DNA of 64,000 nucleotides from Roseivirga misakiensis (GTDB lineage: Bacteria; Bacteroidota; Bacteroidia; Cytophagales; Cyclobacteriaceae). The translations under genes were made by a program, and so were the position numbers. Location: assembly GCF_001747105.1 (NCBI RefSeq), contig NZ_MDGQ01000003.1, positions 124,001 through 188,000 of the forward strand, read 5' to 3'. The notes beneath the pieces were generated by a model. The model searched no databases and was not told the DNA's origin. It saw nothing but the letters and a program-made list of their open reading frames with translations. Position 1 is the first letter of the stretch, and each line of letters starts with the position of its first letter. Of the stretch, positions 10,508-20,409 are shown piece after piece.

Positions 10508-11194
10508 ATGATTTTTGGACCTGACCAAATTACTGATGGTGGCCCCTGGTATGCTGAAACTCACATCACGGACAACCTAATCGTTGAACCGTGGAATGCG
10601 TTTTCTTCCTTGGCCATCGCAGCACCAGCCATTTACTTTCTGTGGAAAATTCGAAAGAATCCAAAAGAGTATGCCTTCCTGTTGGCTTGTATCCCATTCT
10701 TATTTCTAAACGGAATCGGTAGCACACTATTCCATGGGCTTAGAACTTCCCGGGTTTTCCTTTTGATGGATTTTCTACCCGCTTTAATTCTAACATTAAT
10801 GATCACGATCTATTTCTGGTCACGAGTATTGCCAAAATGGTGGATGAGTGTAGGTGTTATTGTTCCAATATTTTTGCTTCGGTTTGGTGTTATAGATCTA
10901 ATTCCAGGACAAGGGGGCATTAATACTTCCTATATGATCAGTGGAGCAGCTTTTTTGGTGCCAGTTTTTCTCATCCTTCGAAAATATCAGTTCAAGAAAT
11001 CTTGGGATATAATCTTAGGTGCCCTATGTTTCGTATTAGCCATTTATTTTAGACAAGTAGACAAAGATTTTACGGAGACGATTGCCATCGGCACACACTT
11101 TTTGTGGCATATTTTCTCTGGAATCGGCGCTTTTCTCTTAGCAGATTATCTTTATTTTATTCGAAAAAATGAGCTTGCGGCACAAACCAGCTGA
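10508..11194 (+). CDS. CREST superfamily (alkaline ceramidase-like) membrane protein
   Basis: A 228-residue protein with about seven membrane helices. It carries the spaced residues of the CREST metal-hydrolase superfamily (ceramidases, PAQR receptors): an early Glu in LIVEPWNAFSS, Ser and His in GIGSTLFHGL, Asp in LLMDFLPAL and the paired His of GTHFLWHIFSG. These are the expected zinc ligands and catalytic Ser/Asp. By family, it would cleave an amide in a lipid such as ceramide; Bacteroidota make sphingolipids, which fits, but the substrate is inference. It lies 91 bp before the Rieske cluster and may be independent of it. Confidence 0.7.
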   Translation: MIFGPDQITDGGPWYAETHITDNLIVEPWNAFSSLAIAAPAIYFLWKIRKNPKEYAFLLACIPFLFLNGIGSTLFHGLRTSRVFLLMDFLPALILTLMITIYFWSRVLPKWWMSVGVIVPIFLLRFGVIDLIPGQGGINTSYMISGAAFLVPVFLILRKYQFKKSWDIILGALCFVLAIYFRQVDKDFTETIAIGTHFLWHIFSGIGAFLLADYLYFIRKNELAAQTS

Positions 11195-11285: not shown

Positions 11286-12899
11286 ATGCAGAAGCCTGTC
11301 GTAGTTGCCAATTTTTTAGCCTTAAAACAAAGAGAACCTAGCCATGCCCTAGTTTCAAAAACCGACCTTGTAGTGATAAGATACGGAGATGAAGTATCCG
11401 TTCTCTATGGAAGGTGCCTTCACCGTGGCGCTTTACTTTCTGATGGCCATGTGGATGGGGATAATTTAATTTGCGGACTGCACAACTGGGACTATAGAAT
11501 TGATACCGGAGTAAGTGAATACAACAATAGCGAGGTGCTCAATAAATTTGATGCTGTTGTAAAAGATGATGAAGTGCTTATCGATGAAAATGAAGTGCTT
11601 GAATTTGAGGTTGCCAACCCTCCTGCATTTAATCGTGATGAATATTTAGGCGAATATGCCGATACTCATCCTGAAGCTACTGAACCCTATACACGGTATA
11701 TCAAGGAACTTGCTCAAAACGGCTTAAAAAATTGGGGGCATCATGGCCCGACAGAAGCCATGGGCGTCGATAGGACAACCCTTCCTAAATGGGAAGATAT
11801 TCAGTTTTTACCTGCCCAGTTATCAAGAAGGCCGTTATTGGATAACGAATCAGTTGGTTCCAAAACGATAATTGGTCTTAATGCCAAGAAACCGCTTGAA
11901 CTGGACATTCCAATCTTTGTTTCGGATATGTCATTCGGAGCCTTGTCAAAAGAGGCGAAAGTGGCTTTATCTGTAGGCGCTGAAATGGCTGGAACAGGTA
12001 TCTGTTCAGGTGAAGGTGGCATGTTACCAGATGAACAAGAAAGCAATTCGCGGTATTTCTATGAATTAGCATCTGCGCAATTTGGATTCTCTTGGGATAA
12101 GCTAGAAAAAGTTCAGGCATTTCATTTTAAAGGAGGTCAGGGAGCCAAAACTGGTACTGGAGGTCATTTACCAGGGCATAAGGTGACTAAAGAAATCGCT
12201 GAAGTCAGGGGTTTAAACGAAGGTGAATCCGCTATCTCTCCAGCTACTTTCCCAGATTTTCACGGTGTCCAAGATTTCAAAGACTTTACGGAAAAAGTAA
12301 GAGAGGTAACTGGTGGCATTCCAGTTGGCTTTAAAATTTCTGCGGCGCGAATTGAAGATGACATCGATTTTGCGTTGGAGGTAGGAGTAGATTACATCAT
12401 CCTTGATGGACGCGGTGGTGGAACTGGCGCAGCACCAACAATCCTTAGAGACAATATCAATGTGCCAACAATACCAGCCCTTGCTCGTGCGCGAAAGCAT
12501 TTAGACGATAAGAAGGCACACGGAGTGAGCCTAATTATCACAGGTGGTTTAAGAGTAGCAGAAGACTTTGCCAAGGCCATGATGATGGGAGCAGATGCCA
12601 TAGCAGTATCCAATTCTGCCTTACAAGCCATCGGATGTTTGGGCATGCGCGCTTGTAATACGAATAATTGCCCTGTAGGAATTGCCACACAAAAAGAGAA
12701 TTTGAGGCAGCGATTAATCATTCAATCCTCGGCCAAACAATTGAATAATTATTTCGAGGCTACCAACGATTTAATGAAAGTGGTAGCGCGGTCTTGCGGA
12801 CACGATGATTTTACGAAATTTAATGCGTCTGACCTGAGCACTTTCAACTGGGATATCCATAAATTGACAGGCATACCCTATGCAGGGGTAAATCCTTAA
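11286..12899 (+). CDS. Rieske domain fused to FMN-binding glutamate-synthase-like domain
   Basis: A 537-residue fusion. Residues ~1-105 are a Rieske [2Fe-2S] domain with ligands C44/H46 (RCLHRG) and C63/H66 (CGLH). Residues ~160-500 are the alpha/beta-barrel synthase domain of the large glutamate synthase subunit, with the FMN-site stretch GGGTGAAP (377-384) and a Cys trio C451-x5-C457-x4-C462 (CLGMRACNTNNC) matching the [3Fe-4S] ligands of glutamate synthase. The glutaminase domain is absent, so ammonia cannot come from glutamine in this protein. An electron path Rieske-[3Fe-4S]-FMN is plausible. The first gene of the cluster; malic enzyme follows 12 bp later. Confidence 0.9.
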   Translation: MQKPVVVANFLALKQREPSHALVSKTDLVVIRYGDEVSVLYGRCLHRGALLSDGHVDGDNLICGLHNWDYRIDTGVSEYNNSEVLNKFDAVVKDDEVLIDENEVLEFEVANPPAFNRDEYLGEYADTHPEATEPYTRYIKELAQNGLKNWGHHGPTEAMGVDRTTLPKWEDIQFLPAQLSRRPLLDNESVGSKTIIGLNAKKPLELDIPIFVSDMSFGALSKEAKVALSVGAEMAGTGICSGEGGMLPDEQESNSRYFYELASAQFGFSWDKLEKVQAFHFKGGQGAKTGTGGHLPGHKVTKEIAEVRGLNEGESAISPATFPDFHGVQDFKDFTEKVREVTGGIPVGFKISAARIEDDIDFALEVGVDYIILDGRGGGTGAAPTILRDNINVPTIPALARARKHLDDKKAHGVSLIITGGLRVAEDFAKAMMMGADAIAVSNSALQAIGCLGMRACNTNNCPVGIATQKENLRQRLIIQSSAKQLNNYFEATNDLMKVVARSCGHDDFTKFNASDLSTFNWDIHKLTGIPYAGVNP

Positions 12900-12911
12900 G
12901 AGAAAAATTCA

Positions 12912-14138
12912 ATGGAAGATATATATAAGAGATCAGTAGCCCTACACGAAGAAATGCAGGGCAAAATTGAGGTCACTAATAAAATTGCTGTGGACAACAC
13001 AGACACTTTGTCTCTGGTCTACTCGCCAGGCGTGGCCCAGCCATGTTTAGAGATTGAGAAAGACCCCGACAAAGCGTATGACTTAACCATGAAAGGCAAC
13101 ACGATTGCCGTGGTAACTAACGGAACAGCCGTTTTGGGTCTTGGAGATATCGGCCCATTAGCTTCGCTCCCAGTAATGGAAGGAAAGGCAATGCTCTTTA
13201 AAAAGTTTGCTGGTATTAACGCCGTCCCTATTTGTATCGAAAGCAACAATACACGTCATATCATCGAGACCATCACCCGAATAGCTCCATCGTTCGGCGG
13301 CGTAAACCTAGAAGACATTAAAGCTCCTGAAAGCTTTGAAATTGAAGAGAAACTTCAAGGCCTGGGCATACCAGTATTCCACGACGATCAGCATGGTACA
13401 GCCATTGTTACACTAGCAGCCCTTGTGAACGCTGCTAAAGTAAAAAACATGAAGCTCAGCGATATGAAGGTCGTCATTAATGGCGCTGGTGCGGCAGGTA
13501 TAGCCATCGCTAAGCTGCTGAGATGTTTTGACATCGATTCTGAGCTTTGTGTGTCCGTTAAACAATTAATCGTTTGTGATAGTAAAGGTGCCATTCACAG
13601 GTTCCGACATGATCTAAACAAAGCAAAAACTGAGCTACTGAAATACTCGAACTTCGATGATGTGAAAGGTGATATCCATGATGTAATTAAAGGAGCGGAT
13701 GTCTTTATCGGAGTGAGTAAAGGAAACCTTTTAACTCAAGTAGATATTAAAAACATGGCTCCTGACCCGGTCATCTTTGCTATGGCCAACCCGACGCCAG
13801 AAATTATTCCCGAAGAATGCTTCTTGGCTGGTGCTTCAATTGTTGGAACAGGTCGAAGCGATTACCCAAATCAAATTAATAACGTTTTGGCCTTCCCTGG
13901 CATCTTCAAAGGCGCTTTGGCGGCAAGAGCTGCTACCATTAGCACTGAAATGAAGTTAGCAGCGGCTTACGCAATCGCTCGATATATTGAAAACCCAACC
14001 AAGGAAATGGTTATCCCTTCGGCATTAGACACGTCTTTAGCTCACGTAGTTGCAGATGCAGTGGAACAAGCTGTATACCACGAAAGGGAAATGGAAAAGA
14101 AAATTTCAGCTGCAGAAGCTGGCGATAGTAATGACTGA
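12912..14138 (+). CDS. NAD(P)-dependent malic enzyme, short form
   Basis: A 408-residue cytoplasmic enzyme that would oxidatively decarboxylate malate to pyruvate with reduction of NAD(P). Seen: the catalytic Tyr of VYSPGVAQP (Y37), Lys of [10 protein letters not shown] (K92), metal-binding LEDIKAPE (E134/D135) and FHDDQHGTA (D158/D159), and the dinucleotide motif NGAGAAG (190-196). The phosphotransacetylase-like C-terminal half found in many bacterial malic enzymes is missing. The C-terminus overlaps the next ATG by 8 bp, so the gene is embedded in the Rieske operon, which suggests it supplies pyruvate or NAD(P)H to it. Confidence 0.92.
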
Positions 14139-14346
14139 GACAGTAGCTACCATATTTTTAATCGCGCTAGCCATCTATGTATTGTTGGGGTTATTCTTTT
14201 ACGCCTTCTTTATCAAATCAGGTGTTCATAAAATTGATAGTGGTGTCAAAGAAGCACCAATTTTTATGAAGGTTCTAATTCTGCCCGGTACAGTGGCACT
14301 TTGGCCCATATTGCTCAAGAAAATAAGGAAAGGGGAAGCATCATGA
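14131..14346 (+). CDS. small membrane protein of the Rieske cluster
   Basis: A 71-residue protein. I chose the ATG at 14131, inside the end of the malic enzyme gene, because the product then begins with [20 protein letters not shown], a membrane helix; an earlier in-frame ATG would only add malic-enzyme overlap. A second hydrophobic stretch (FMKVLILPGTVALWPILL) follows. The stop overlaps the next start as ATGA. Not a family I recognise; its position suggests a small subunit of the membrane complex. Confidence 0.65.
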   Translation: MTETVATIFLIALAIYVLLGLFFYAFFIKSGVHKIDSGVKEAPIFMKVLILPGTVALWPILLKKIRKGEAS

Positions 14347-14780
14347 ATGTAAAACTCAGACAGCGCCATCGGTATATCTGGATGGTGATGGGCATAGCTT
14401 TACCCCTACTTTGCCTAGAAGCAATCGAAGGAATTCCTCAAAATGTGATCGCGGACATCCCGAGACATTCTTGCACGCTTGATATCGGTATTTGTGGCAT
14501 TAACTATGAAGGCGACTCACAAGCAATACAAATCGAGCAAGTAAAAAGTAAAAACTCATTTGGTGTCGTTGTTAACGCACCACTCAAATCTGCCTTCACG
14601 CTTCTTTATCTTTCTAACAAGCAGGAATATGATGAAAGCGCAGTGTTATTAGGAGCGATTAATAGCATGGGTGAGTATAATTTCGATCTGCCTGAAAACG
14701 CAGAGAACTACAAGTACTTACTCCTTGCCGATAAATTAAATGACAAAACACTCTATCACGAGGAATTCAAGAACCAATAA
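14343..14780 (+). CDS. membrane-anchored periplasmic protein of the Rieske cluster
   Basis: About 145 residues, starting at the ATG that overlaps the preceding stop. A basic N-terminus (MNVKLRQRHRY) leads into one membrane helix (WMVMGIALPLLCL), then a probably periplasmic domain with two close Cys residues in HSCTLDIGICGI and a beta-rich remainder. The Cys pair could form a disulfide or bind a cofactor. The family is unknown to me. Three bases separate it from the cytochrome-like gene. Confidence 0.6.
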   Translation: MNVKLRQRHRYIWMVMGIALPLLCLEAIEGIPQNVIADIPRHSCTLDIGICGINYEGDSQAIQIEQVKSKNSFGVVVNAPLKSAFTLLYLSNKQEYDESAVLLGAINSMGEYNFDLPENAENYKYLLLADKLNDKTLYHEEFKNQ

Positions 14781-14783
14781 GTT

Positions 14784-15809
14784 ATGAGTGTAAACTATGC
14801 TGGTATATTATGGAATAAGCAAAAGAAGATTTACGATACAATCCTCTTTGTTTTCGTTTTAGGCTACCTAGGGCTATACATTGTTTTCACTGGGCTCTAC
14901 AACCCGGAGTTAACAGCCGAAACCATGATTATCAGGGCAACTGCGACTTTAGCCCTATTACTACTGCACATTATTTTAGCTATTGGTCCGCTAGCCCGAT
15001 TGAATTCCAAGTTTTTACCCCTCCTATACAACAGACGTCACTTAGGGGTGACCATGTTTTTGGTGGCTTTGGTACATGGGGTTTTTAGCATTATGCAATT
15101 CCACTCACTGGGTAGTAAAAACCCACTGATTTCTCTTTTCACCTCCAATGGTAGCTATAACAGCCTGGTAGAATTTCCATTCCAAGTATTAGGCTTTTTT
15201 GCCTTAATGATTCTATTTCTAATGGCCGCCACTAGCCATGATTTTTGGTTGAAAAACCTAAGCCCAAAAGTCTGGAAGGGTTTGCATATGATGGTCTATT
15301 TGGCCTATGCACTGATCATTATGCACGTAATGCTCGGTGTGGTTCAATTAGAATCATCCCCTTTTATTTACGGTGGCCTCATGCTGGGACTTATGATCAT
15401 CATTGCCTTACACTTTGGATCGTCCATAAAGTCTGGAAGAGGTTTAGCATTGACTTCCAAAGGCTATTACTACGCCTGTAATTTAGAAGACATCAAAGAT
15501 GATTGCGCAAAAGTCGTCACGTTGAATGGAGAAAATATCGCGATTTTTAAATACGATGGTAAACTCTCAGCGATCAGTAACGTCTGCAAACATCAAAATG
15601 GTCCACTTGGAGAAGGAAAGGTTATTGATGGTTGTGTGACTTGCCCGTGGCATGGCTACCAATATGAGCCTCACAATGGAACTTCTCCACCGCCTTTTAC
15701 TGAAAAAGTAGCGACTTATTTATTGAAGCTTGATGGTGAAAAAGTGTTTGTCGATCCAAAACCACAACCAGAGGGCACTGCTCTAGAACCGATAACCTTT
15801 GAATCATAG
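14784..15809 (+). CDS. ferric-reductase-like membrane b-cytochrome fused to a Rieske domain
   Basis: A 341-residue protein. Residues ~18-212 contain six predicted membrane helices of the ferric-reductase-like type, with His residues placed as candidate haem ligands (H62, H86, H98, H168, H181). Residues ~226-325 form a Rieske [2Fe-2S] domain with C268/H270 (VCKHQNGPLGEG) and C287/H290 (CPWHG). By family, such membrane domains bind b-haem and move electrons across the membrane. The usual FAD/NAD(P) reductase domain is replaced by Rieske, so the electron donor may be another Rieske protein of this cluster, which is inference. Confidence 0.88.
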   Translation: MSVNYAGILWNKQKKIYDTILFVFVLGYLGLYIVFTGLYNPELTAETMIIRATATLALLLLHIILAIGPLARLNSKFLPLLYNRRHLGVTMFLVALVHGVFSIMQFHSLGSKNPLISLFTSNGSYNSLVEFPFQVLGFFALMILFLMAATSHDFWLKNLSPKVWKGLHMMVYLAYALIIMHVMLGVVQLESSPFIYGGLMLGLMIIIALHFGSSIKSGRGLALTSKGYYYACNLEDIKDDCAKVVTLNGENIAIFKYDGKLSAISNVCKHQNGPLGEGKVIDGCVTCPWHGYQYEPHNGTSPPPFTEKVATYLLKLDGEKVFVDPKPQPEGTALEPITFES

Positions 15810-15812
15810 ATT

Positions 15813-16598
15813 ATGAAAGACGAATTCTACGTAGGTTATCTTCCAAAAGCACCAAAAAAGATTGCTCGATTTGTGATCGCCTTTGTAGTGCTAATATTCA
15901 TTGTGATGGGTGCGGTTTCGTTTTTCATGTCTTCTTCACACAAACATATCAACAATGGAACTTATGAGTTCGGTGAACTTACCGAAATGACGGGCGTGAT
16001 TAAAATGGAACCTGTTCCGCACATTAGGATAATTGCCGATGAAGAAGGTAAGGTTGGCAAAAACATTATGCTGATTGACTTTGGGAAATTCGGCGCGAGA
16101 AGTTCTATCGAAAAAATGCAGGAAACCGTCGGCGGCAATATCAGTGATTATGAAGTCACTTTACGAGGAACACTGATTTATCAAGATGGATTCACACTGC
16201 TAGAACTAACCGAAAAAGAAAAGTCTTTGCAAAACCATCGCACATTAGAAAACGCCAATAAATACGAGGTTATTCGAGCTAGCGCAGGTTCAATTTCACT
16301 GACTGGCGAAATCGTGGACCCAAAATGCTATTTCGGTTCCATGAAACCAGCGCAAAATAAGCCACATAAATCATGTGCTAGTTTGTGTATTGCTGGCGGC
16401 ATTCCACCAGTCTACGTCGTCCAGACAAAAGAGAAGTTAGCCAACTATTACATCATTAAAGGGACAAATGGTGAAGATATCAATCAAGAAGTTCTAGAAT
16501 TTGTGGCAGAAGGCGCAAACCTTCAAGGCAAAGTTGAACAACTGGGAGAATGGAAAATCTTATATGTAGACCCTTCTAAAATTAAACGACTCAACTAA
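15813..16598 (+). CDS. membrane-anchored periplasmic protein with a Cys/His motif
   Basis: A 261-residue protein with one membrane helix near residues 17-38 and a large periplasmic part. Residues ~50-135 look like an OB-type beta domain. Residues ~160-255 carry a conserved-looking metal motif: C172 (VDPKCYFG), H185, C188 and C192 (HKSCASLCIAGGIPP). I have seen similar D-x-x-C...H-x-x-C-A-x-x-C patterns in uncharacterised periplasmic proteins but cannot name the family. A metal or haem role in electron transfer is inference from context. Its stop overlaps the next ATG (TAATG). Confidence 0.65.
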   Translation: MKDEFYVGYLPKAPKKIARFVIAFVVLIFIVMGAVSFFMSSSHKHINNGTYEFGELTEMTGVIKMEPVPHIRIIADEEGKVGKNIMLIDFGKFGARSSIEKMQETVGGNISDYEVTLRGTLIYQDGFTLLELTEKEKSLQNHRTLENANKYEVIRASAGSISLTGEIVDPKCYFGSMKPAQNKPHKSCASLCIAGGIPPVYVVQTKEKLANYYIIKGTNGEDINQEVLEFVAEGANLQGKVEQLGEWKILYVDPSKIKRLN

Positions 16599-16996
16599 TG
16601 GATAACTGGGTAATTCCTTTAACACTATTACCTGGTATCGGCATGATGATCATGTCTACTTCTAACTTGGCCACCGCCATCAGCACTGAAATCAATAACC
16701 TCCTCGAACGCCAAGACTGTAAACCAGAACTGATCCAGAAAAAGATATCGCAGATGTCGCTACTTAACGTAGCGATGGTTTGTCTATACATTAGTGCCGC
16801 AGTTTTCGCAGTAGCCGGACTGATTGAAGGAATATTCGAGCTACGAACAGAAATGCATGATGGCACACTACATCAATTGCTTTTAGTAGTTGGCATAGCG
16901 GCACTGGTCATTGCTTCTTTGCTACTCATCACTTTTTCAATACGAGCAGTACGCATTAAGCACAACCAATTTTTAAATAGTATACATAAAGACTGA
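16598..16996 (+). CDS. small three-helix membrane protein, DUF2721-like
   Basis: A 132-residue integral membrane protein with helices near residues 4-20, 52-75 and 90-112. The pattern of a first helix, a charged cytoplasmic stretch (NNLLERQDCKPELIQKKISQM) and two closing helices resembles DUF2721 proteins; this match is from memory and weak. It is translationally coupled to the preceding gene and precedes the Rieske-TPP enzyme by 3 bp, so it is part of the same operon. Role unknown. Confidence 0.6.
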   Translation: MDNWVIPLTLLPGIGMMIMSTSNLATAISTEINNLLERQDCKPELIQKKISQMSLLNVAMVCLYISAAVFAVAGLIEGIFELRTEMHDGTLHQLLLVVGIAALVIASLLLITFSIRAVRIKHNQFLNSIHKD

Positions 16997-16999
16997 ACC

Positions 17000-18946
17000 A
17001 TGGCTAAAAAAATGAAATGGCACAAAGTGCTAGACGACGTAAAAGACCTTCCTGAAGGCCGTGTCATGTCTGCCAACGCAGAACATCAAGTGTTGTGTTT
17101 AACCCATTTCGAAGGTAAGATTTCGGCACTCGATAATCGATGTCCGCACCAAGGAGGTCCTTTAGGAGAAGGAAGCATTGAAAATGGTTTGCTGAGGTGC
17201 CCATGGCATGGTTGGGACTACCATCCATGTACTGGCTTGGCCCCAGGATACGACGATGGCGTTGAGACTTTTCTGACTAAAGTAGAAGACGGGGCCGTTT
17301 TCGTGGGTATTGAAGAAGAAGCGCCACATGAGGCCACTATCTCAGATTTAATGGCTGAAACCATGGTGAATTGGGGTGTTACAAAGGTATTTGGCATGGT
17401 TGGCCATTCTAATCTTGGATTTGCCGACGCCATGCGCAGACAAGAGGAACAAGGCAAGTTAAACTTCTATGGCATCAGACATGAGGGTGCCGCATCATTC
17501 GCTGCGTCAGCCTATGGAAAACTAACCGGTAAACCTGCGGCATGCTTTGCTATAGCAGGCCCTGGATCGACTAATATGTTTACAGGGCTTTGGGATGCTA
17601 AGGTAGACAGAGCACCAATACTCGCCCTTACTGGCCAAGTGGCTACACAAGTAATCGGTACGGGTAACTTTCAAGAGGTGGACTTAGTAAAGGCTTTTGG
17701 GGCAGTAGCCGAATTTAACCATGCTACTCAGAGTTCTAGTAAACATGCCGAACTGATGGGAACGGCCATCAAACATGCGATTTTAAAAAGAGATGTCTCT
17801 CATTTAACCTTCCCAGACGAAGTACAAGAACTGCCTGTCCCTGAAAATGCAAGCCCTGGCACACCTGATGGAAGAATGACACCACTACAAATTGCGCCAC
17901 CACAAGAAAGTCTGGATGAAGCCATTACCCTATTTAAAAAATCTAAGAAACCTGCGATTATCGTTGGTCATGGTGCACGGTTTAATATGCCAGCAATCAT
18001 CGAATTTGCTGAAAGTATTAATGCACCGGTGATGACTACATTTAAAGCCAAGGGACAGATTGCAGACAACCATCCGCTGGGCTGCGGTGTACTCGGAAGA
18101 AGTGGAACACCAATAGCTTCTTGGTTTATGAATGAAGCCGATATGCTTTGTGTGTTTGGAGCGTCTTTCTCAAACCATACGGGCATTACTGATCATATTC
18201 CAACAATTCAAATCGACTTTGACCCACTAGCACTCAGTAAATTTCATAAGATCGATGTTCCTGTTTGGGGTGAAATCTCGGTGACTGTTGACTTATTGAA
18301 AAAAGGGCTTTCGGGTAAAACAGATACAGTTGATCGTCGCGATGAAGTTGCTAAGCGTTGGGCTATTTGGAAATCGGAAAAAGCAAAGAGATTATTAGAA
18401 GACCAGGGTAAAGGTGTCAGCTCGATCGCGGTATTTGATGCGATGAACAAATTAACGCCAGCAAACGCCGTTATCTGTGCAGATGTAGGAAACAACGCTT
18501 ATTCCCTAGGTCGATATTTCGAGACAAAAGAGCATACCTTTCTGATGTCGGGGTACTTAGGTTCCATTGGCTTCGCTTTTCCAGCAGCCATGGGTGCTTG
18601 GGCTGCTGTAGGTGATTCTAGACCGATAATTGCCGTTGCAGGTGATGGTGGTTTCTGTCAGTACTTGGCAGAATTGACTACAGCGGTAAAATACAAGATG
18701 CCTATTAAGTTGATCTTACTGAATAATTCAGAACTAGGTAAAATTTCTAAAGAACAGCGCGCAGGAGAATTTGATGTTTGGGCTACTGAACTTCACAATC
18801 CTAATTTCTCTGATTATGCCAATAGTTGTGGCGCTTTGGGGATTCGGGTAGAAAGTAAAGACGATTTAGCCGATGCTATGAAACAAGTGATAGCGCACGA
18901 TGGACCTGCTATGTTAGAAGTTATGACAGATGTAGGACTAATCTAG
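17000..18946 (+). CDS. Rieske domain fused to pyruvate-oxidase-like TPP enzyme
   Basis: A 648-residue fusion. Residues ~5-105 are a Rieske domain (C48/H50 in RCPHQGGPLGEG, C67/H70 in RCPWHGW). Residues ~110-645 are a three-domain TPP enzyme of the pyruvate oxidase/acetolactate synthase group: catalytic Glu162 in IRHEGAASFAA, a central nucleotide-binding-like domain around 300-430, and the TPP/Mg motif GDGG (547-550) followed by NN at 574-575. By family, it would decarboxylate pyruvate or another 2-oxo acid; the Rieske centre could take the electrons. Substrate and use of FAD cannot be decided from sequence. Last large gene of the cluster. Confidence 0.9.
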   Translation: MAKKMKWHKVLDDVKDLPEGRVMSANAEHQVLCLTHFEGKISALDNRCPHQGGPLGEGSIENGLLRCPWHGWDYHPCTGLAPGYDDGVETFLTKVEDGAVFVGIEEEAPHEATISDLMAETMVNWGVTKVFGMVGHSNLGFADAMRRQEEQGKLNFYGIRHEGAASFAASAYGKLTGKPAACFAIAGPGSTNMFTGLWDAKVDRAPILALTGQVATQVIGTGNFQEVDLVKAFGAVAEFNHATQSSSKHAELMGTAIKHAILKRDVSHLTFPDEVQELPVPENASPGTPDGRMTPLQIAPPQESLDEAITLFKKSKKPAIIVGHGARFNMPAIIEFAESINAPVMTTFKAKGQIADNHPLGCGVLGRSGTPIASWFMNEADMLCVFGASFSNHTGITDHIPTIQIDFDPLALSKFHKIDVPVWGEISVTVDLLKKGLSGKTDTVDRRDEVAKRWAIWKSEKAKRLLEDQGKGVSSIAVFDAMNKLTPANAVICADVGNNAYSLGRYFETKEHTFLMSGYLGSIGFAFPAAMGAWAAVGDSRPIIAVAGDGGFCQYLAELTTAVKYKMPIKLILLNNSELGKISKEQRAGEFDVWATELHNPNFSDYANSCGALGIRVESKDDLADAMKQVIAHDGPAMLEVMTDVGLI

Positions 18947-19000
18947 TGGAACGTTCCTGCTCACCAATCAGTTTATGAACTAACAATAAATAAGAAGAAG

Positions 19001-19282
19001 ATGAAAGCAATTTGGAATGATGAGATTATCGCCGAAAGTAATGAAACGGTAGTCGTTGAAGGAAACCATTATTTCCCTCATGAGTCTATCAAAAAAGAAT
19101 ACTTTAAATCGAGTAGTACACACTCCAACTGTCCGTGGAAAGGAATAGCAAGTTACTACACGATTGAAGTAAACGGTTCTGAAAATCCAGATGCCGCTTG
19201 GTACTATCCTGAAACCTCAGAATTGGCGAAAGGCATTAAGAATTACGTCGCTTTTTGGAAAGGCGTCAAAATCGAAGATTGA
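19001..19282 (+). CDS. DUF427 domain protein
   Basis: A 93-residue protein matching the small DUF427 family: WNDEIIAESNETVVVEGNHYFP at the start, then the core HSNCPWKGIASYYTIEVNG and the closing AWYYPETSELAKGIKNYVAFW. The biochemical function of the family is not established. It follows the Rieske-TPP gene after 54 bp on the same strand and may be the last gene of the unit. Confidence 0.85.
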   Translation: MKAIWNDEIIAESNETVVVEGNHYFPHESIKKEYFKSSSTHSNCPWKGIASYYTIEVNGSENPDAAWYYPETSELAKGIKNYVAFWKGVKIED

Positions 19283-19380: not shown

Positions 19381-20268
19381 ATGAGCCTTGCCTCTATCAA
19401 ATCCAATTGGTCGCTATTAAGTAGTGTAGATCCAAAAACTTTAGCTCCGGCTATTGAGCAAATTCATCGAGGTGTTCAATTCATCGCCATGGCGGGAAAA
19501 CACTATATCAAAAATGAACCCGACGATAGCCATACAAATCTCAGGTGGCTGCCTAGAGAAGAAGTACTCGCAGGAAATTGGATAAGAGAACGCCAGGGTA
19601 ATTTCAGATTTGCTATGCGACCAAAGGACTTGACTTTGATCGCTTATAATGCGGATATGAAAGGAGTAGCTAATTATCCGCTTAATCGCAAAACGAATGA
19701 TGAAGCACTTGAATGGATAAAGGACCAGTTGACTACCTTCGGTAAAGATGCTGGGCTTATGAAAATGGATATCCACTATGATATTCCAACCCATGAGACT
19801 GACAACGGAGCCCCTTACCAGTTCGAAAACCCAGAACTTTTCGAAGAAATGGCTAAGTACCGATCAAATAGCAATTTAGCCCTAGAATATTTTGCTCAGT
19901 CTTATAAAACGTCATCAACTGTAAGGACATGGCCTCATCATTTTGATCACGGTGTCTATATTCCAATGGTTTTTGATGATGGAGAGGACCCGATCAAATC
20001 TTTCAGTATCGGCATGGGTATTCCAGACCCAGCCAGTGAAGAACCTTACTATTATATCACGACTTGGTCGAAAGATGGCGATAACGAATACAAAGATCTA
20101 CCTAAACTACCGCATGGGCAGTGGATCAGTGAACCATTCAAAGGGGCAGTGTTGAAGGCTTCAGAAATAGTAAAGTCAAAATCAGCAGCGCAACAATCTA
20201 AAATAGTGATGGATTTCTTGAAAGCAGGAATTGCGGCTTCTTTAAACATTCTAGGTATTGATCAGTAA
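19381..20268 (+). CDS. conserved hypothetical protein with WPHHFDHG motif
   Basis: A 295-residue soluble protein without signal peptide or membrane helix. Its most distinctive stretch is RTWPHHFDHGVYIP (around residue 185), a histidine-rich motif that recalls DUF5996-type proteins and could bind a metal. Another acidic/aromatic segment, ASEEPYYYITTW, follows. I cannot assign a reaction. It is 98 bp downstream of the DUF427 gene and ends at a strong shared terminator. Confidence 0.6.
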   Translation: MSLASIKSNWSLLSSVDPKTLAPAIEQIHRGVQFIAMAGKHYIKNEPDDSHTNLRWLPREEVLAGNWIRERQGNFRFAMRPKDLTLIAYNADMKGVANYPLNRKTNDEALEWIKDQLTTFGKDAGLMKMDIHYDIPTHETDNGAPYQFENPELFEEMAKYRSNSNLALEYFAQSYKTSSTVRTWPHHFDHGVYIPMVFDDGEDPIKSFSIGMGIPDPASEEPYYYITTWSKDGDNEYKDLPKLPHGQWISEPFKGAVLKASEIVKSKSAAQQSKIVMDFLKAGIAASLNILGIDQ

Positions 20269-20375: not shown

Positions 20376-20409
20376 AAAAAAAGCCCTTCGATTTTCGAAG
20401 GGCCTTTTA
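20376..20409. terminator. bidirectional terminator between convergent genes
   Basis: AAAAAAAGCCCTTCG-attt-tCGAAGGGCCTTTT forms a hairpin with an A run before it and a T run after it. It serves both the gene ending at 20268 and the symporter ending at 20410. Confidence 0.85.

Follow-up and report, generated by a model that had tools for sequence, protein, structure and literature searches.

Pyruvate oxidase PoxB of E. coli consists of three thiamine pyrophosphate (TPP)-enzyme domains with a catalytic Glu, followed by a C-terminal peptide which serves in membrane binding. MsrQ and other ferric-reductase-like b cytochromes hold paired histidines on two helices of a PF01794 domain, the large subunit of glutamate synthase (GltS) contains an FMN/3Fe-4S domain (PF01645), and the Rieske ferredoxins of ring-hydroxylating dioxygenases are free electron carriers. 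A fusion of GltS to a CDGSH domain has been published as type 5 CISD (PMC3174974, PMC5859297). Here we analyze a gene cluster of Roseivirga misakiensis in which relatives of the first three groups are each fused to a Rieske domain: a GltS-like protein (GltR), a membrane b cytochrome (CytR) and a TPP enzyme (TPPR). The cluster lies in a stretch of 64,000 nucleotides (assembly GCF_001747105.1, contig NZ_MDGQ01000003.1, positions 124,001 to 188,000), hereafter the window, to which all coordinates refer. We propose, with roughly even confidence, that it specifies an electron-transfer system which is conserved, has spread horizontally, relies on a Rieske plug common to its proteins and is fed by 2-oxo-acid oxidation.

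The single proteins are variants of known families, while the system has no described counterpart in the literature searched. As the initial annotation had supposed, no description of the Rieske-TPP fusion, of the Rieske-GltS fusion or of this gene set was found in the PMC open literature, outside of which most subscription papers lie. A Rieske transcript reported in PMC9478572 comes from a gene listed there together with a cytochrome c, and was read by its authors as a bc1 Rieske; on this description, rather than by sequence comparison, it was taken to belong to a different system.

The features of the region are the following:

11286..12899, + strand: GltR, 537 amino acids (aa), N-terminal Rieske domain and glutamate-synthase central FMN/3Fe-4S domain (PF00355, PF01645)
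12912..14138, + strand: short malic enzyme, 408 aa, a clade-level accessory (PF00390, PF03949)
14131..14346, + strand: p71, small membrane protein with two predicted transmembrane (TM) helices, recurrent partner of CytR (hydropathy, relatives)
14343..14780, + strand: p145, N-terminal TM anchor and a small, presumably periplasmic domain (hydropathy)
14784..15809, + strand: CytR, ferric-reductase-like b cytochrome with six predicted TM helices and a C-terminal Rieske domain (PF01794, PF00355)
15813..16598, + strand: p261, TM anchor and two OB-like folds, probably periplasmic (AlphaFold2, Foldseek, hydropathy)
16598..16996, + strand: DUF2721-like small membrane protein (PF11026, 30.9 bits against a cut-off of 28.3)
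17000..18946, + strand: TPPR, 648 aa, N-terminal Rieske domain and a complete pyruvate-oxidase-like TPP enzyme (PF00355, PF02776, PF00205, PF02775)
19001..19282, + strand: DUF427 protein (PF04248)
19381..20268, + strand: p295, soluble protein of unknown family with DDS and WPHHFD motifs, likely member of the set (recurrence beside GltR or TPPR)
20378..20408, either strand: strong terminator-like hairpin acting in both directions, at which the transcription unit may end (consensus scan only)

Three proteins of unrelated families do carry a Rieske domain, as first noticed: PF00355 scores over its cut-off in GltR (Pfam E-value 1.2e-11), CytR (4.3e-17) and TPPR (1e-13), and all four ligands of the cluster (C-x-H ... 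C-x2-H) are present in each. The whole genome contains five Rieske genes over cut-off, three of which fall within this stretch of about 6-7.7 kb; by our own estimate, the chance that three out of five randomly placed genes lie so close is of the order of 1e-5 to 1e-4. The Rieske domains of GltR and CytR match the dioxygenase ferredoxins, that of TPPR weakly (PF22543, below cut-off), but here they are fused to their partner proteins. The extra cysteine of the bc1 type occurs in no motif-fitting Rieske row of the TPPR, CytR and GltR alignments; its absence points to a low potential.

The packing and order of the genes were also correctly described at the outset: nine open reading frames (ORFs) follow each other on the + strand; as far as TPPR they overlap or are separated by 3-12 bp, and DUF427 comes 54 bp further on. 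GltR and the malic enzyme gene are 12 bp apart, the latter overlaps p71 by 8 bp, p71 and p145 share an ATGA overlap, p261 and the DUF2721-like gene a TAATG overlap, and the gaps p145/CytR, CytR/p261 and DUF2721/TPPR measure 3 bp each. Four small membrane or periplasmic proteins had been counted, and the DUF2721-like protein is indeed one of them. The gene set probably extends beyond these nine genes: a consensus scan detected no + strand terminator-like site between TPPR and p295 and, since the strong hairpin comes only after p295, the latter is taken as a likely member.

TPPR features the TPP-binding N-terminal, middle and C-terminal domains recognized by Pfam and a catalytic Glu, located by alignment to 3eya. 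PoxB is its best PDB match (E 3.4e-70), and the two share the three TPP-enzyme domains, the catalytic Glu (RHE) and a Glu aligned with TPPR E585. In contrast to PoxB, TPPR has an extra N-terminal Rieske domain and no membrane-binding tail: the alignment stops at PoxB residue 526 of 572, and TPPR ends 6 residues later. The best NCBIfam model, pyruvate oxidase PRK08611, scores 398 bits, below its cut-off of 742. In an alignment which excludes TPP enzymes of less than 40% identity and the duplicates L244 and L245 (loci are designated by L numbers), the Rieske ligands and the catalytic E162 are found in 97 out of 97 rows, K581 and E585 in 96 out of 96 ungapped rows (one gap for K581 among the 97). 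The invariant K581 aligns with a phenylalanine of PoxB, at a position which we take to lie by TPP and substrate; plain pyruvate may accordingly not be what TPPR acts on.

GltR has the PF01645 domain in common with the GltS large subunit, from which it differs by its operon link to TPPR and CytR and by the missing amidotransferase: no glutamine amidotransferase domain was found by Pfam in its 537 aa, and the full-length glutamate synthase model scores 135 bits against a cut-off of 1047. In 87 aligned rows the 3Fe-4S cysteines C451, C457 and C462 are invariant, as are E243, K282, Q285 and K288, while the position of Synechocystis R992 is kept in 86. T291 (77 rows) and H294 (84 rows) stand where glutamate synthase has E975 and Q978 (Synechocystis). 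We take Synechocystis E903, K966, Q969, K972, E975, Q978 and R992, positions counted on the alignment, to be residues of the 2-oxoglutarate site. The Rieske ligands are present in 82 of the 87 rows and missing from 5.

The plan of the type 5 CISD, as given in PMC3174974, equals that of GltR, but with a CDGSH [2Fe-2S] domain where GltR has the Rieske. Relatives of GltR in Vibrio and Shewanella, 61-62% identical over the core, likewise have no Rieske and two CDGSH domains instead, detected by Pfam in Vibrio and as a motif read by eye in two Shewanella sequences. A third GltS-like version, with no Rieske and 34-35% identity, was found in two Cyclobacteriaceae metagenome-assembled genomes (MAGs), the hosts of L007 and L009; its N terminus is hydrophobic by eye, and its gene is packed with p295, p71, CytR and p261. 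The presence of CDGSH in place of the Rieske argues that the N-terminal domain is an electron port, and an exchangeable one; a common core with differing N-terminal parts suggests that electrons may enter or leave at that end. If the proposed system is real, electron coupling by domain fusion would be directly testable, given that nature offers versions bearing a Rieske, versions bearing CDGSH and versions devoid of both.

CytR shares with MsrQ and the ferric-reductase-like cytochromes the PF01794 domain and paired histidines on two helices, but the C-terminal Rieske and the partners p261 and p71 are absent from the MsrQ type; the MsrQ model scores 44.6 bits on CytR, below its cut-off of 130. 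A Pfam scan of the recurrent neighbor families revealed no molybdoenzyme. H86, H98, H168 and H181 are found in all 59 rows; they form two pairs, with spacings of 12 and 13 residues, on two helices, an arrangement that two b hemes would require. All 59 rows also keep the Rieske ligands. Hydropathy predicts six TM helices, two overlapping peaks having been merged, and charge counts place both the N terminus and the C-terminal Rieske in the cytosol. The initial annotation had electrons pass from Rieske centers to the membrane b cytochrome, a putative flow which fits the conserved residues and the predicted topology.

Among the partners of CytR, a p71 relative was detected in 33 of 34 CytR loci by tblastn, and in the 34th (L033) by clustering; relatives also occur in Pseudomonadota and Rhizobium. 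The p145 family comprises 34 ORFs by clustering. p261, never found without CytR among the 80 TPPR loci described below, is predicted to contain one N-terminal TM helix (hydropathy), followed by two OB-like folds (AlphaFold2 mean pLDDT 86, from an alignment of 33 of 34 locus members and the window protein). C172, M177, H185, C188 and C192 are conserved across phyla in 59 out of 59 rows, and likely form a metal or redox site on the periplasmic side.

Conservation was evaluated on the loci of the best 80 of 305 TPPR relatives, from named genomes, mostly of Bacteroidota, at least two of which contribute two loci each. The closest relatives belong to Roseivirga or Cyclobacteriaceae (L001-L009). GltR is found in 48 of these loci, CytR, p261 and p71 in 34 each, p145 in 19, and GltR together with CytR in 27. 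The order is GltR-malic-p71-p145-CytR-p261-DUF2721-TPPR in Roseivirga-like loci and GltR-antiporter-TPPR-p71-p145-CytR-p261-YHS in many Flagellimonas-like ones. Core pairs that occur frequently are separated by median gaps of -4 to 7 bp, GltR and TPPR by one of 62 bp. A set which is re-ordered yet kept together is better evidence of joint function than plain synteny. The core is made up of GltR, TPPR and the membrane module p71/p145/CytR/p261, often joined by a cation/proton antiporter and p295.

In 395 Bacteroidota genomes, TPPR was found in 11, CytR in 13 and full-length GltR in 48 (10 of 58 matches, spanning only about residues 163-533, were excluded), and all three in 6. TPPR and CytR share 6 genomes, where 0.36 are expected (Fisher p 1e-7); GltR is present in 10 of the 11 TPPR genomes (p 3e-9) and in 12 of the 13 CytR genomes (p 3e-11). 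Between-locus identities of TPPR, GltR and CytR are correlated (Spearman 0.77-0.92), to an extent reached by none of 499 permutations.

The association is also found outside Bacteroidota. Among 299 genomes from the phylum to which a TPPR-bearing Shewanella (L013) belongs, CytR occurs in 6 and TPPR in 5; excluding the center genome G454, which had been picked for its TPPR, TPPR is found in 4 of 298, all four of which also bear CytR (Fisher p 5e-8). In those four genomes GltR, CytR, p261 and TPPR lie side by side in compact operons: L238 has the order antiporter-GltR-p71-CytR-p261-x10-TPPR, from which L234 differs by having no antiporter; L235 and L237 are arranged like these, except that mis-called ORFs hide some small genes. 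In GC-rich loci, spurious ORFs hide CytR (L236, L237), small genes (L235, L237) or the antiporter (L220), and the affected maps were read through tblastn positions or record annotation. TPPR of this phylum is 56-58% identical to that of the window, while GltR shares 66-69% identity with the relative closest to it in the set. The fusions therefore co-occur and are syntenic across genomes and phyla, as the statistics of both groups and the re-ordered operons indicate; a failure to do so had been the main refutation envisaged in the initial annotation.

More distant occurrences are often plasmid-borne. Plasmids of four haloarchaea encode a full TPPR (about 58% identity), and three of them a Rieske-GltR (59%) at 1.4, 4 and 17 kb from TPPR; in Halorarius an antiporter adjoins TPPR. 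On a Mycobacteroides plasmid, TPPR (52%) is accompanied by a cation:proton antiporter and by an FMN-reductase-like protein, the latter 56% identical to one located near TPPR in 12 Flavobacteriaceae-type loci. Five Rhizobium plasmids contain CytR and p261, and the two read in detail have a separate, Rieske-less TPP enzyme nearby. The one Acidobacteriota case, L033, is a MAG, and may therefore be due to contamination.

The genes themselves, their conservation, co-occurrence and linkage, the residues of ligands and active sites and the predicted topology form the basis on which we infer cofactor occupancy, redox potential, direction of flow, substrates, final acceptor and docking of the Rieske proteins, as follows. 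In the cytosol, TPPR would use thiamine diphosphate for the oxidative decarboxylation of pyruvate or a related 2-oxo acid, and would pass the electrons to its own low-potential Rieske [2Fe-2S] center, rather than to quinone via a membrane-binding tail as in PoxB. GltR would convert an amino acid into a 2-oxo acid or the reverse, and trade electrons with the same pool through its own [2Fe-2S] port. CytR would receive electrons at its cytosolic Rieske, and its two b hemes would relay them through the membrane, probably toward the metal/thiol site which p261 exposes in the periplasm or toward menaquinone, in a membrane complex completed by the small proteins (p71, p145 or x10). In the Roseivirga-like clade, the malic enzyme would probably supply pyruvate and NAD(P)H. 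More tentatively, such a "Rieske bus" might constitute a new class of membrane-linked system, in which a 2-oxo-acid oxidase and a GltS-like enzyme, both fused to a low-potential Rieske domain, feed one dedicated transmembrane cytochrome b-Rieske protein with no recourse to NADH, ferredoxin or direct reduction of quinone, the whole block being traded between bacterial phyla and its soluble part also being haloarchaeal.

If true, this would be a respiratory or redox input where unrelated enzymes came to share one membrane cytochrome, each having acquired an iron-sulfur connector of the same kind. A function would thereby be given to genes whose present annotation goes no further than "thiamine pyrophosphate-binding protein", "glutamate synthase-related protein" or "Rieske 2Fe-2S domain-containing protein", and a role to the unknown families p261, p71 and p295.

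Several points weigh against the proposed system. Both the co-occurrence and the permutation tests ignore phylogeny and the transfer of the block as a unit; each genome being weighted equally, shared descent inflates the co-occurrence figures. Residue rows were not thinned, so that near-identical rows from one genome stay among the 97, 87 and 59. GltR and CytR are both missing from 25 of the 80 TPPR loci, and from 12 of the 60 with more than 8 kb on both sides. CytR was searched elsewhere in the genome for 37 of the 46 loci devoid of it (the nine excluded being mostly short contigs), and found in 9, two of which have a second TPPR locus also among the 80, with none at cut-off in 28. For 31 of the 32 loci without GltR, the genome contained a full GltR elsewhere in 5 cases, a Rieske-less match in 3 and none in 23. 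In all of the genome searches, few candidates are scored per genome, and an absence is valid for the sensitivity and cut-off used. The trio is not obligatory, and each protein can therefore work without the others. Two of the 6 CytR loci in the Shewanella phylum are made up of p71-CytR-p261, with neither GltR nor TPPR. Finally, the fold matches of p261 are weak: Foldseek returned mostly OB-fold proteins, the best at E 2.7e-3 and none at E<=0.001.

Among the other explanations, we regard as unlikely a redox-stress module, in which oxidants, thiols or metals in the periplasm would receive reducing power exported by the chain, with the TPP enzyme and the GltS-like enzyme supplying or spending electrons under stress. 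The patchy, partly plasmid-borne distribution is compatible with it, as are many neighbors: recurrent EgtD (TIGR03438 over cut-off in L036) and multi-domain rhodanese genes, pyridine-nucleotide-disulphide reductases (PF13738, presumably of the YpdA type), NAD(P)H-hydrate epimerase in Bacteroidota and haloarchaea, a sigma-70-type factor, and merA-annotated and peroxiredoxin genes on haloarchaeal plasmids. However, no such neighbor is as constant as GltR, CytR or p261, and several of them may be passengers. Moreover, no named stress gene is among the nine of the window cluster, and the antiporter and tripartite ATP-independent periplasmic (TRAP) transporter neighbors point to acid or ion transport instead.

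Rather improbable is also an inward flow, by which CytR would draw electrons from the quinol pool or the periplasm and the Rieske centers would feed a reductive amination of the glutamate synthase type by GltR, with no need for NADPH or ferredoxin, TPPR being a second consumer or a non-oxidative carboligase. GltR retains most of the glutamate synthase substrate-site residues and the 3Fe-4S cysteines, CytR is found with GltR (12/13) more often than with TPPR (6/13), and in L182-L185 CytR, GltR, p71, p261 and p295 occur together without TPPR, no match to which was found in their genomes. Yet GltR is substituted at two substrate-site positions (E975 to T, Q978 to H) and has no amidotransferase domain, while TPPR keeps the catalytic Glu positions of PoxB, and chemistry of this type would release electrons.

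The pathway first suggested, in which the malic enzyme converts malate to pyruvate and TPPR oxidizes the latter in favor of CytR, seems highly doubtful in that exact form. The short malic enzyme scores over cut-off with PF00390 and PF03949, and below that of the NCBIfam long form (352 against 1178 bits). Its presence in the window operon speaks for the pathway, as does the fact that L001, L002 and L200 contain, at this cluster, a malic enzyme from another class, and L004 and L006 enzymes of both lengths. In L001 and L002, the two of 7 Roseivirga-like loci in which the short form is missing, a 538-aa malic enzyme begins 16 and 8 bp past the TPPR stop codon; the L001 protein belongs to another class (PRK13529, 709 bits against 326). 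However, a malic enzyme of either class is found in only 8 of the 80 TPPR loci, namely the 7 Roseivirga-like ones and L079, and in none of 6 Pseudomonadota CytR loci. L200 has CytR and, after p261, the long malic form, but no TPPR, and its genome (G006) is without a TPPR-grade match; moreover, TPPR differs from PoxB at K581. As a core step, the conversion of malate is not supported: the short enzyme lies near the cluster in only 6 of the 80 TPPR loci, five Roseivirga-like ones and L079, where it is 3.2 kb from TPPR, and the stretches examined in Pseudomonadota, Rhizobium, haloarchaea and Mycobacteroides yielded none. On this distribution the malic enzyme was rejected as a core member; it was kept as a clade-level accessory because two classes have been recruited, and malic activity seems useful to the Roseivirga-like version of the cluster.

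A chance neighborhood of unrelated genes, which the non-obligatory trio might suggest, is contradicted by synteny, and hardly credible in view of the co-occurrence and of re-ordered, recurring operons in two bacterial phyla.

As for the proteins accompanying the core, p295 relatives are found in 49 of the 80 TPPR loci, and p295 is the same-strand neighbor of GltR 15 times and of TPPR 11 times. Its AlphaFold2 model (pLDDT 96.4, from 46 of 49 locus members and the window protein) gave a best fold match at E 0.09 and no PDB match at E<=0.001: p295, with its conserved DDS and WPHHFD motifs, is a candidate new fold. DUF2721 and DUF427 relatives occur in 23 and 13 of the 80 loci, respectively. Genes for an EgtD-type histidine methyltransferase and/or a multi-domain rhodanese were seen at L036:1403-3669, L065, L069, L076, L078, L080, L169 and L170, often with DUF427 and p295, resembling the EanA/EanB ergothioneine route. 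An ergothioneine operon tied to p295 is possible; as a function of the cluster, this neighborhood was discarded, being present in few loci.

The cation/proton antiporter (PF00999) is found in 34 of the 80 loci, and its best NCBIfam models are Na+/H+ and K+/H+ antiporters, below cut-off. TRAP transporter genes lie near GltR or TPPR in two Pseudomonadota operons, L234 and L235. Both kinds of transporter would fit an import of organic anions; deducing an organic-acid substrate from the TRAP genes was abandoned, since the matched solute-binding models name none.

The FMN-reductase-like protein is located near TPPR in L022, L023, L025, L028, L029, L037, L039, L040, L042, L047, L053 and L059. In none of these 12 loci does it occur together with GltR, and their genomes also gave no GltR, as if the one replaced the other. 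NAD(P)H-hydrate epimerase genes were observed near TPPR or GltR in Bacteroidota and haloarchaea (L019:961-1641, L221:11104-11835, L226:5753-6493). In Flavobacteriaceae-type loci (L024-L072), p261 is followed by a tail of genes for YHS-domain, LysE, DinB-like, TANGO2-like and ATP-grasp-like proteins; the YHS-domain protein, found in 18 loci, has an N terminus which by eye looks signal-like, and may be a partner in the periplasm. Directly upstream of GltR, at 10508-11194 of the window, lies the gene for a ceramidase-like membrane protein (PF05875), relatives of which precede GltR in 6 of the 80 loci.

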